Shown here piece by piece: positions 31,704 through 61,250 of a stretch of 64,000 bases of DNA. Origin of the DNA: Advenella sp. S44 (GTDB lineage Bacteria; Pseudomonadota; Gammaproteobacteria; Burkholderiales; Burkholderiaceae_B). Numbering within the stretch: position 1 is the first letter of the stretch; every line of letters starts with the position of its first letter. The notes beneath the pieces were generated by a model. It saw nothing but the letters and a program-made list of their open reading frames with translations, had not been told where the DNA came from and searched no databases. The stretch lies in assembly GCF_002810445.1 (NCBI RefSeq), contig NZ_NEXS01000003.1, positions 1,240,001 to 1,304,000 of the forward strand, read 5' to 3'. The position numbers and the translations under genes were made by a program.

Positions 31704-31993
31704 GGTTGTCTCCTAAATTTTTTTATCGTTTTTAGAGTGTAGAGTTAACCTACTATATGAACAAATTCTATTTCTATAGTTATCTATACGGTTTTGATAT
31801 AGGCAAACTAACCGGCGGAAAAAATTAGCGCGATGCAGTAAAGACGAAGCTGTTCTAAAGCATTCATGGAACACGTAAACCCCGGCGGCTGTATTTGCCT
31901 TCGCCGATTAAGTTGAGAAAGAAACGCTGATTCAATACAATATTGCCTAAAACGCGGGGGTTGCAGCGCAATCAAGATAGTGTTGGAGAGAAC

Positions 31994-58376: not shown

Positions 58377-59834
58377 ATGAAACCTATTGAATCTGATCTT
58401 CAGGCAGTCGCAACCGCAAAATCCTTGCTGCTGGACCCCTGGGACCTGAACGAAAACCATATGGCCGCCGCGCTGGCCGAGATTTTTACCCATAAAGTCG
58501 ATTACGCCGATCTGTACTTCCAGTACACGCGCAGCGAAAGCTGGAGTCTGGAAGAGGGAATCGTCAAGACCGGCAGCTTCTCCATCTCCCAGGGCGTCGG
58601 TGTTCGCGCGCTGGCTGGCGAGAAAACGGCTTTTGCCTATTCGGACAAACTTTCGCCTGCGGCCCTGATGGAATCGGCGGCAACAGTCAAGGCAATTGCC
58701 CGACAGGGCGAAGGGCGTATGAAGGTCGTGGGCAATGGCAAGAACAAATCACACGCGCTTTACGGGCAGGACGATCCCATTGCCGCCATGCCTGCCACTG
58801 AAAAGGTGGCTTTGCTCGGACGAGTCGAAACGATTGCCCGCGCCAAGGATCCTCACGTGATTCAGGTCATGGCGGGGCTGGGTTCGGAATATGACGTTGT
58901 GATGATCGTCGGCAGCGACGGCCGGCTGGCTGCCGATATCCGGCCGCTGGTACGCCTGTCTGTCACCGTGATTGTCGAGCGCAATGGTCGACGCGAGATG
59001 GGACATGGCGGTGGGGGTGGCCGCCTGGGACTGAACTATTTCTCTGACGCGCTGTTGCACGAGTATGTGGACAAGGCAGTGCACGAGGCGCTTACGAACC
59101 TGGAAGCCAGAGACGCACCGGCTGGTGAAATGACGGTTGTACTGGGTGCCGGCTGGCCCGGCATCCTGTTGCACGAAGCCGTGGGCCATGGTCTGGAAGG
59201 TGACTTCAACCGCAAGGGTTCCAGTATCTTTTCCGACCGCATCGGTGAGCGCGTCGCCTCCAAGGGTGTGACGGTCATTGACGACGGTACGATAAAAGAT
59301 CGTCGCGGTTCGCTCAATGTAGACGATGAAGGCAACGCGACACAGCGCAATGTACTTATCGAGGATGGTATTTTGCGTGGCTACATGCAGGATTCGCTCA
59401 ATGCCCGTCTGATGAAGACCAAAGTGACCGGCAACGGTCGTCGTGAATCCTATGCGCATCTGCCCATGCCTCGCATGACCAATACCTTTATGCTGGGTGG
59501 CGATCACAATCCGCAGGATATTGTCGCATCCGTCAAAAAAGGGCTGTATGCTGTCAATTTTGGCGGCGGCCAGGTCGATATCACCAGTGGCAAGTTCGTG
59601 TTTTCGGCCAGCGAAGCCTATATGATCGAGAACGGTCGTATTACTTATCCGGTAAAAGGAGCCACGCTGATCGGCAATGGCCCGGACGCCATGAATCGGG
59701 TTTCCATGATTGGGGACGATCTGGCGCTGGATTCGGGTGTGGGCACTTGTGGCAAGGAAGGTCAAAGTGTACCGGTAGGGGTCGGAATGCCGACCATTCG
59801 CATGGAAGGCCTGACCGTTGGCGGCACCGCCTGA
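58377..59834 (+). CDS. tldD: Metalloprotease TldD
   Basis: A 485-residue subunit of the TldD/TldE protease, which matures peptide antibiotics such as microcins and degrades unfolded or modified peptides. The zinc motif HEAVGHGLEGD is at residues 266-276 (H266, E267, H271). Also seen are GVGVRALAGEKTAFAYSD near residue 75 and the C-terminal GTCGKEGQSVPVGVGMPTIRMEG. The partner TldE (PmbA) is not in the window. Confidence 0.95.
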   Translation: MKPIESDLQAVATAKSLLLDPWDLNENHMAAALAEIFTHKVDYADLYFQYTRSESWSLEEGIVKTGSFSISQGVGVRALAGEKTAFAYSDKLSPAALMESAATVKAIARQGEGRMKVVGNGKNKSHALYGQDDPIAAMPATEKVALLGRVETIARAKDPHVIQVMAGLGSEYDVVMIVGSDGRLAADIRPLVRLSVTVIVERNGRREMGHGGGGGRLGLNYFSDALLHEYVDKAVHEALTNLEARDAPAGEMTVVLGAGWPGILLHEAVGHGLEGDFNRKGSSIFSDRIGERVASKGVTVIDDGTIKDRRGSLNVDDEGNATQRNVLIEDGILRGYMQDSLNARLMKTKVTGNGRRESYAHLPMPRMTNTFMLGGDHNPQDIVASVKKGLYAVNFGGGQVDITSGKFVFSASEAYMIENGRITYPVKGATLIGNGPDAMNRVSMIGDDLALDSGVGTCGKEGQSVPVGVGMPTIRMEGLTVGGTA

Positions 59835-59951
59835 CGTTATTAGCACGCCTGTCGCCGCCAATGTGGCCCGATAGGCACAGTTTGCCAAAATTTTTTGTTT
59901 TGCGGCCGATTGACACGCCGCAGCCTAAAAAGCTGTGCTAGGATTGCTGTT

Positions 59952-60008
59952 ATGAAACAAGTGAGCAACGTTTTTTTCTTCTTTTATTTTACATTTTCGA
60001 CGCGATAG
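59952..60008 (+). CDS. Phe-rich leader peptide of the aroG attenuator
   Basis: An 18-residue frame MKQVSNVFFFFYFTFSTR with an AGGA site 8 bases upstream. Residues 8-15 hold six phenylalanines and one tyrosine, as in the pheL and pheST leaders of enterobacteria. It is followed by a rho-independent hairpin (60064-60095) and then by aroG (DAHP synthase). When Phe-tRNA is scarce, a ribosome would stall here and prevent the terminator. Not part of a longer gene. Confidence 0.8.
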   Translation: MKQVSNVFFFFYFTFSTR

Positions 60009-60063
60009 GCGGAGAAAAGGACGTTGCGTACTTAGCGAAAGCAGCAAGAAGCTACAAGACACC

Positions 60064-60095
60064 AAAAGGCCGCCAGAATTTCTGGTGGCCTTTTT
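60064..60095 (+). terminator. Rho-independent attenuator upstream of aroG
   Basis: Arms AAAAGGCCGCCAG (60064-60076) and CTGGTGGCCTTTT (60082-60094) pair with one G-U, loop of 5 bases, then T-run and CG. GGCGG at 60008-60012, which overlaps the leader stop codon, is complementary to CCGCC in the left arm (60070-60074). It could therefore form an antiterminator when the ribosome stalls at the Phe codons. This last part is inference. Confidence 0.8.
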
Positions 60096-60176
60096 CGTTT
60101 TATGCGATGCACTGCCGGGCTGAGCAAGCTTATAACCGATTCGACCCATTGTTTAATGATCTATCTGGAGTTTTCT

Positions 60177-61250
60177 GTGTCCCACAATACTGACGATTTA
60201 CGTATTCGAGAAATTAAAGAGCTTAGCCCGCCATCGCATCTGATGCGCGAGTTCACCTGCTCTACTCAGGTGTCCGGCCTAGTGCATGATACGCGTGAGG
60301 CGATCCATCGGATCCTGCACGCCAAGGACGATCGGCTTGTCGTCATTATCGGCCCGTGTTCGATCCACGACCCGTCCGCTGCGCGCGAATACGTGAAACG
60401 ACTCAAGGAGCAGCGTGACCGCTTCAGTGAGGACCTGGAGATCGTGATGCGGGTTTATTTCGAAAAACCGCGCACAACGGTTGGCTGGAAGGGGCTGATC
60501 AACGATCCGGATCTTGATGGCAGCTTCAATATCAACAAAGGCGTGCGGCTGGCCCGGGAGCTGCTGCTTGAGGTCAATGAAAGCGGCGTACCGGCAGGCT
60601 GCGAATTTCTGGATATGATCACGCCGCAGTATATTGCCGATCTGGTTTCCTGGGGCGCCATTGGCGCGCGTACCACCGAGAGCCAGGTGCATCGTGAACT
60701 GGCATCTGGCCTGTCATGTCCGGTGGGTTTCAAGAACGGGACCGACGGCAATATCAAGATCGCCATTGACGCGATCAATGCCGCTTCCCAGCCGCATCAT
60801 TTTCTATCGGTGACAAAGGGCGGACATTCGGCCATTGTGTCCACGGTCGGTAATGACGATTGTCATGTCATTCTGCGCGGGGGCAAGGCGCCCAATTATG
60901 ATGTGCAAAGCATCAATCTGATGTCCGAGCAGTTGTCCAAGGCAGGTCTGCCCAGCCGAATTATGATTGATGCCAGTCATGCCAACAGTAACAAGAAATA
61001 TGAGAACCAGCCGCAGGTCATCGAAGACGTCGCGGGACAGATGGAGTCTGGCGACCACCGTATTTGTGGCGTGATGGTAGAGAGTCATCTGGTGGCCGGC
61101 CGTCAGGACCTGAAAGAAGGGGTCGAGCTGACTTACGGACAAAGCATAACGGATGGCTGTATCGGATGGGACACGTCGGTGCAGGTACTGGAGCGCCTGG
61201 CCCAGGCAGTACGTTCGCGTCGCGAGCAGAAAGCCGACATCAATACCTGA
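60177..61250 (+). CDS. aroG: 3-deoxy-7-phosphoheptulonate synthase (class I DAHP synthase, AroG-like)
   Basis: A 357-residue first enzyme of the shikimate pathway, joining PEP and erythrose-4-phosphate. Seen are VVIIGPCSIHDPSAAREY, YFEKPRTTVGWKGLINDP, CPVGFKNGTDG (near residue 192), the SVTKGGHSAIVST region and IMIDASHANSNKK. I chose GTG at 60177: a GGAG site lies 6 bases upstream and the resulting length is that of AroG/AroF/AroH. The upstream Phe-rich leader suggests control by Phe, so this may be the Phe-sensitive isozyme. Confidence 0.93.
   Translation: MSHNTDDLRIREIKELSPPSHLMREFTCSTQVSGLVHDTREAIHRILHAKDDRLVVIIGPCSIHDPSAAREYVKRLKEQRDRFSEDLEIVMRVYFEKPRTTVGWKGLINDPDLDGSFNINKGVRLARELLLEVNESGVPAGCEFLDMITPQYIADLVSWGAIGARTTESQVHRELASGLSCPVGFKNGTDGNIKIAIDAINAASQPHHFLSVTKGGHSAIVSTVGNDDCHVILRGGKAPNYDVQSINLMSEQLSKAGLPSRIMIDASHANSNKKYENQPQVIEDVAGQMESGDHRICGVMVESHLVAGRQDLKEGVELTYGQSITDGCIGWDTSVQVLERLAQAVRSRREQKADINT

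Follow-up and report, generated by a model that had tools for sequence, protein, structure and literature searches.

The region upstream of aroG in Advenella sp. S44 is best explained as a ribosome-mediated transcription attenuator that senses charged aromatic tRNAs, a reading to which we give a probability of about 0.92. Leader-peptide attenuation is a classical mechanism. We analysed a stretch of 64,000 nucleotides, referred to as the window, and all features of the element are on its forward strand. The case is made by the parts visible in the sequence, their conservation before aroG, the covariation of both alternative helices, and the position of a -10-like element. As in an attenuator, a short leader ORF includes a run of codons for the end product of the pathway, and an intrinsic terminator is found between the leader and the structural gene. 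The third part, an antiterminator excluding the terminator under a translating ribosome, is argued for by sequence, covariation and modelled folds, with a helix of 5 pairs in the window. A leader-peptide attenuator on aroG is what the preliminary description of this DNA had proposed, and the conservation of leader and terminator before aroG together with the covariation of both helices support it.

The leader ORF (MKQVSNVFFFFYFTFSTR, 59952-60008) has 18 codons, starts with an ATG at 59952, ends with a TAG stop at 60006-60008, and is kept in relatives. The sensor codons FFFFYFTF (59973-59996) include six Phe and one Tyr, and a comparable run is present in the relatives' leaders, which were themselves selected on F/Y/W content. 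Length and composition are as described before, but the aromatic residues, previously placed in the last third of the peptide, are residues 8-15 and occupy its last 60%. The downstream gene (60177-61250, GTG start, Shine-Dalgarno GGAG at 60167-60170) had been called a DAHP synthase, and it is AroG by NCBIfam NF006723 (588.6 bits, cut-off 568), with TIGR00034 also matching. The upstream neighbour at 58377-59834, which from its sequence we take to be tldD, ends 230 nt upstream of the terminator hairpin. A genome-wide AroG search of the own genome finds one match, PF01474 finds none, and the second PF00793 match, a protein of 299 aa, is probably KdsA, so that aroG seems to be the sole DAHP synthase gene of the genome. 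The four leader peptides searched against NCBIfam and Pfam match no family. Among the ATG ORFs of 10-45 codons on either strand of the window, a single other one reaches 6 aromatic codons in 9. This further short ORF, MNKFYFYSYLYGFDIGKLTGGKN at 31757-31828, has CCTACTAT immediately 5' of its ATG and GGCGG motifs within and downstream of it; a T-run terminator is not seen there by eye.

The intrinsic terminator (60064-60095), identified by hairpin search, folding and covariation, has arms at 60064-60077 and 60081-60094, a CCGCC core at 60070-60074, and the T run TTTTT at 60091-60095. The hairpin (60064-60094) has 14 pairs, 7 of them G-C, and it starts 56 nt past the leader stop, exactly where a rho-independent hairpin with a T-run had been reported. 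The antiterminator strand (segment 2) is GGCGG at 60008-60012, its first G being the last G of the leader stop. The suggestion that GGCGG at the leader stop pairs with CCGCC as an antiterminator agrees with the complementarity of 60008-60012 and 60070-60074 and with covariation in relatives. In the window this duplex is short (5 pairs, -11.1 kcal/mol). A 1:2 (pause or protector) hairpin is predicted at 59959-60033 by the MFE and centroid folds, in which the Phe codons pair with GGAGAAAAGGACG; its strength varies among relatives. The fold of 59940-60103 has -63 kcal/mol compared to -36.4 (sd 3.5) for shuffled sequences (z -7.6, none of 200 shuffles as low). A terminator-like hairpin by itself is not rare, one being found where 1.2 are expected in shuffles, and for that reason it is conservation that makes the case for the element, the hairpin alone being unremarkable.

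AroG is found in 56 of the 61 genomes searched, including the own genome. For 28 of the 30 loci fetched (the window is L001), leader and terminator are present before aroG by eye; the two without are L011 and L028. Conservation of the leader among relatives, its Phe codons included, had been named as a way to check the proposal, and it is borne out by these loci and by model matches across the order (Burkholderiales). In the genus of the window the leader has two forms, MKQVSNVFFFFYFTFSTR with the stop just 5' of GGCGG, and MKNLSVSFYFFYFSFSKPWAERRTQLTQ in which the ORF continues through GGCGG. In many further relatives the leader contains ...FYFYFYGFPMPLAEEG... or ...FFYFFAFPKPLVEEG..., and the antiterminator strand (CCGCTGGCGGAGGAAGG) is itself the coding sequence for PLAEEG. 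The xanthomonad leaders (L141, L153, L163 and others) have P(K/M)PLAEEG, or PKPTAEEG in L153, a motif in common with leaders of the window's family, and in L141 this stretch encodes the antiterminator strand.

We built one covariance model from 28 sequences (R1) and another from 66 diverse sequences (R2). R1 matches 69 of the 399 genomes of the order at E 0.01. The leaders at these loci include MSAKFYFYFFWHLKPLADREG, MQSRNFFAFYFWFSVPGGREARL and MLRTAPYFFWFWYPTLLAAGRK before aroG, and six of the 69 loci (L067, L089, L093, L097, L098, L099) are without an AroG motif downstream. R2 matches 239 of the 399 genomes at E 0.01, with many among the matches listed covering the terminator part only. The R2 count is limited to the 107 matches spanning positions 1-135, down to E 1.8e-6, and leaves out five further full-length ones below E 1.8e-6 (G224, G314, G241, G213, G154). 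These 107 strong full-length matches are in 106 of the 399 genomes, and aroG directly follows in 103 of them: 69 by coordinates among the AroG matches listed (79-196 nt away), 19 by motif, G054 by construction, and 14 of 17 fetched. The coordinate check used the 107 R2 matches and 70 AroG matches among those listed for genomes in the R2 list. The four not before aroG are G151, G284 (other gene, FYWY leader), G339 and G367 (Leu-rich leaders, followed by ORFs that resemble acetyltransferases by eye). Absence of the element is common in the order, as AroG is found in 294 of the 399 genomes (E 1e-80) and a strong element before aroG in 102. Twenty further aroG upstream regions were read by eye, one copy being read for genomes with two, and 16 are without the element while four have it (L106, L111, L118, and doubtfully L119). 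Within the window's own family, L011, L028, L116 and L117 have no leader before aroG, one of them in a 0.8 Mb genome; these are probable losses of the attenuator.

Of 369 genomes of the class, seven have a match at E 1e-6; four of the seven lie outside the order, and aroG follows in the three that were fetched. Among the best 80 of 587 AroG loci, 44 carry the element as found by script, two of them doubtful (L162, L174). These include Burkholderia, Caballeronia, Paraburkholderia, Cupriavidus, Massilia, Rugamonas, Janthinobacterium and Oxalobacter, and also Xanthomonas, Stenotrophomonas, Pseudoxanthomonas, Dyella, Devosia, Mesorhizobium and Bradyrhizobium. The 36 of the best 80 in which the script does not find it include Citrobacter, Serratia, Erwinia, Pantoea, Pectobacterium, Dickeya, Shewanella and Enterovibrio, as well as Undibacterium, Thauera, Azoarcus, Rhodocyclus, Methylotenera and Chitinimonas. 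On a quick AroG tree with many weak forks, built from the window and the best 80 of 587 loci (81 rows), presence and absence require 6 label changes compared to 26.8 when shuffled (0 of 500 as low). The tree fits joint inheritance and transfer of leader and gene, and does not prove a single origin. The script that finds leaders reports one in 133 of 195 regions and misses L012, L014, L025, L064, L071, L087, L093 and L111, where a leader is seen by eye. It prefers ATG, so both the ATG fraction among starts and the distances measured to the start partly reflect its design. The set of 120 leaders used for statistics is without nine identical copies and without L067, L119, L162 and L174, which are doubtful or not before aroG.

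By eye, a second aromatic-leader attenuator, with an FYW-rich leader such as MKTLNIRPFAYFYWYHTNVRYSFALV, is upstream of an uncharacterised protein of about 168-209 aa (L120:1954-2651, L121:1856-2674, the upstream regions of L205 and L206, and L221). Four genomes with this protein were found among 120 searched, all with an FYW-rich leader, and G284 seems to be a fifth case; the two members scanned score above cut-off for no Pfam or NCBIfam family. In G164, a TTGACA-17-TCTAAT ends 8 nt before the leader ATG of this second attenuator. Leu-rich leaders (MFSIRQSVLLLLANDPTG... and MELFIAALLSLLLLSRL...) with a terminator are present in two genomes of one family of the order (L222, L224), and the ORFs after them look by eye like GNAT acetyltransferases.

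In our alignments, terminator and antiterminator both covary. For the 28 sequences, the terminator is paired in 98.7% of the cells and the antiterminator in 86.8%, the latter with 7 both-sided cells compared to 2.8 (sd 1.4) when shuffled. In the terminator of the 66 diverse sequences, both-sided changes affect 5 pairs and 41 cells, compared to 11.9 (sd 2.4) cells when shuffled, counts that are in part due to selection because the script that picked the sequences required a terminator hairpin. The antiterminator was no selection criterion, although its columns were chosen by hand; it is paired in 90.5% of the cells, with 17 both-sided cells compared to 6.1 (sd 2.0). Three of its pairs have both-sided changes, which is not striking given that 181 of 500 shuffles reach three. 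The base after CCGCC (column 166) matches both of its partners, as U-A-U in 25 of the 66 sequences and as C-G-C in 9 (other combinations or gaps in 32), as would be expected for mutually exclusive helices. In an alignment-free test, the sequences' own antiterminator duplexes have a mean of -16.43 kcal/mol and swapped ones -15.81 (sd 0.18), and 3 of 5000 permutations reach a mean this low. As the GGCGG/CCGCC core shows so little variation, the effect is a modest one.

Instead, the hairpin could simply terminate tldD, and the Phe-rich ORF could have arisen by chance in a spacer rich in T, since tldD ends at 59834, 230 nt upstream, and such hairpins are expected about once here by chance. We regard this as extremely improbable. 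When the tldD-aroG spacer is shuffled by dinucleotides, 2 of 3000 sequences give an ORF with 7 aromatic codons in 9, and in 49 of the 96 loci tested leader and terminator are kept before aroG with no tldD match within the locus, results on which we reject both the chance ORF and the tldD terminator. The element is missing from L011 and L028, two loci at which the end of tldD, judged by eye, lies immediately upstream of aroG. The element goes with aroG rather than with tldD. Terminators can also be controlled in several other ways, and an RNA bound by a protein or a ligand (TyrR-like, riboswitch, T-box) could take the place of the translated leader. Against that, which we hold to be highly improbable, what has been conserved is a series of aromatic codons, in frame, within short ORFs. 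No Rfam 15 family is at threshold for the window or at gathering for 13 relatives, and the window's best match, to RF01859 Phe_leader, has 24.9 bits (E 0.25) for a gathering score of 55. The T-box and riboswitch models in particular have no match in 59000-61000 of the window (E up to 1) or in the 13 loci (gathering), and the TyrR-type HTH PF18024 has its best match in the own genome at 22.9 bits, under the 27-bit cut-off.

At the start of the leader we depart from the preliminary description, which saw a good ribosome-binding site. We propose a putative extended -10 promoter element, TGTGC-TAGGAT at 59934-59944, read from the sequence and from a spacing peak in relatives. Its hexamer (59939-59944) is 7 nt before the leader ATG, and transcription would start at about 59951-59952. 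A two-hexamer promoter scan of 59500-60400 finds none, the putative -10 included. Among 96 non-redundant leaders, -10-like hexamers (at least 4/6 to TATAAT, with A at position 2) occur 48 times at 6-9 nt before the start codon versus 34 times over the other 22 spacings (0-25), and TGnTA 37 times at 6-9 nt versus 6 at other spacings. The Shine-Dalgarno cores GGAG, GAGG and AAGG are present in 3 of the 96. With Shine-Dalgarno rare and the hexamers peaking 6-9 nt before the ATG, the leader ORF is probably leaderless. Starts are ATG in 117 of the 120 leaders, as given by a script that prefers ATG. The Burkholderia-type and Massilia-type leaders show by eye no clear -10 at 6-9 nt, and the claim is therefore not universal in the family. 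An ordinary Shine-Dalgarno (AGGA, 59940-59943) with a promoter further upstream is an unlikely alternative: AGGA is 8 nt before the ATG and is in range in 11 of the 96 leaders, and TTGACA at 59910-59915 could be part of such a promoter. However, at the first loci the cores are found in 0 of 25 leaders and in 30 of 30 aroG starts, other clades have TA-rich hexamers with no AGGA at equal spacing (TATCAA, TATATG, TACCAT), and a pyrimidine is at -1 in 82 of 96 leaders. AGGA(T) is more likely part of an extended -10. There is precedent for a leaderless attenuator ORF in Sinorhizobium meliloti trpL (PMC10117765), and leaderless mRNAs are reported in Burkholderia cenocepacia (PMC4603805) and Cupriavidus metallidurans (PMC7563307).

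We infer the start site, the stalling, the direction of the response and the amino acid sensed as follows. RNA polymerase would start at the leader ATG or a few bases off, and a ribosome would initiate on the nearly leaderless 5' end and follow the polymerase. When Phe-tRNA, and probably Tyr-tRNA too, is scarce, the ribosome would stall in FFFFYFTF, leaving GGCGG free to pair with CCGCC before the second arm of the terminator is made, and transcription would go on into aroG. With charged tRNAs, the ribosome at the stop would cover GGCGG, the hairpin 60064-60094 would form, and transcription would end. In the window, the strong 1:2 hairpin should also favour termination if the leader is untranslated.

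To model this, we placed a ribosome at chosen positions on nine leaders and predicted how the uncovered RNA folds. The nine are L001 (window), L007, L010, L017, L020, L024, L043, L141 and L170. In the nascent RNA of all nine, the terminator 5' arm is predicted to pair upstream while the ribosome occupies the first or the middle aromatic codon. The expected upstream pairs of a stalled complex are 6.7-8.0 in the relatives; in the window they are 3.1-3.3 at the first or middle codon, rising to 5.0 when the last Phe is reached. L007, whose Trp codon sits at the antiterminator, is the exception at the last aromatic codon. Once the stop occupies the A site, the upstream pairs fall to at most 0.2 in L007, L010, L017 and L020 and to 1.5-2.8 in L001, L024, L043, L141 and L170, the window having 2.6 versus 3.1-5.0 when stalled. 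In the full-length RNA, the arm is paired within the terminator at every ribosome position in eight of the nine, the window included; L170 has much less terminator pairing of the arm when the ribosome stalls. The choice between the helices would therefore be made kinetically, as it is in attenuators of the classical type. The short antiterminator duplex of the window, the preference of its full-length fold for the terminator and its 2.6 upstream pairs at the stop count against the attenuator reading. With no ribosome, the 1:2 hairpin hides segment 2 in the window (1.8 pairs), L024 (0.6) and L010 (2.4), and the antiterminator forms in L007, L017, L020, L043 and L141 (6.0-8.0), L170 being intermediate (3.8). 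Because these folds vary, the outcome for an untranslated leader may differ between relatives, even inside the genus.

The element had been named a phenylalanine attenuator, which suits the mostly-Phe leader of the window but is too narrow for the family. The sensor stretch of 120 distinct leaders includes Phe in 120, Tyr in 116, Trp in 56, and all three in 54; because F/Y/W content was the selection criterion for these leaders, information comes solely from their mixture. Among the leaders found, Tyr codons come close to Phe codons in frequency, in F/Y/W runs of 4-8 in 9 codons. Trp is common outside the window's own family, in which L024 is the only one of 30 with Trp in the sensor stretch. 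By its codons the family goes beyond Phe, even if Phe predominates in the copy of the window. It is nonetheless possible, at a little under even odds, that Tyr and Trp codons stand in for Phe without effect and that the charging of Phe-tRNA alone counts. The window leader, with six Phe to one Tyr, is in line with this; the Tyr and Trp counts above are against it, as are rhizobial and xanthomonad leaders (SYFWYFSY, SFYFWYYGF) with Tyr/Trp codons at least as many as Phe codons. The F-Y-F leader of C. glutamicum is reported to respond to Phe and not to Tyr (PMC11802643). It is a warning against taking codons as signals.

In E. coli, aroG is under TyrR control, and for E. coli the earlier remark that an attenuator on a DAHP synthase gene is not the textbook case is right. 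In C. glutamicum, however, attenuation of a DAHP synthase gene is already described for aroR-aroF (Neshat et al. 2014, cited in PMC11802643), where it had been predicted (PMC4046766) and where Phe limitation is reported to raise transcription (PMC11802643). Compared by description, the two share attenuation (proposed in the present case) ahead of a DAHP synthase gene and a leader peptide in which Phe and Tyr codons occur, but C. glutamicum is an actinobacterium and its leader has Phe-Tyr-Phe as printed (PMC11802643). In the present, proteobacterial element the F/Y/W runs are longer (4-8 in 9 codons), and its core is GGCGG/CCGCC. The element is like E. coli pheL-pheA (Rfam RF01859 Phe_leader) and pheM-pheST in the leader-peptide attenuation of Phe-related genes (PMC11802643). 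It differs from them in its target, aroG, and in the mixed F/Y/W codons of the family. Like S. meliloti trpL (rnTrpL/peTrpL), it would have a leader ORF beginning at the transcript AUG, although in PMC10117765 that start is reported, for a Trp leader before trpE, and here it is inferred. The Vibrio aroA considered next is a DAHP synthase gene. Putative attenuators are listed for aroA-tyrA in Vibrio and for the Bordetella gyrA-serC-pheA-tyrA-aroF cluster (PMC1173090 Table 7), and these too are predicted attenuators on aromatic pathway genes; they do not concern the present aroG, and the main text of PMC1173090 does not include the term 'leader peptide'. Among the papers listed in searches of a literature collection with few subscription journals, we found no report of a proteobacterial aroG leader, and aroG has no occurrence in the main texts of PMC2965389, PMC4603805, PMC7563307, PMC3616915 and PMC10117765.

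The mechanism is known; what sets this case apart is a wide distribution for which we found no description, mixed aromatic codons and a probable leaderless start. The mixture of Phe, Tyr and Trp codons raises the question of whether several amino acid signals are integrated by one leader peptide, and the apparent leaderless start beside a gene with a proper Shine-Dalgarno is a second point of interest. The covariance models and the list of leaders are sufficient for proposing an RNA family. We suggest tentatively, at somewhat less than even odds, that this widespread leaderless attenuator may be a general aromatic sensor, with one leader jointly monitoring whether Phe-, Tyr- and often Trp-tRNA are charged, that it gates the entry to the shikimate pathway via the main DAHP synthase gene, and that it has travelled with aroG among beta-, gamma- and alphaproteobacteria. 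If true, one RNA would do the job of E. coli's three isozymes and TyrR/TrpR. In a large bacterial group, to which relatives of Burkholderia, Cupriavidus, Xanthomonas and Bradyrhizobium belong, the attenuator would be a defined point at which the flow of carbon into aromatic amino acids is controlled.
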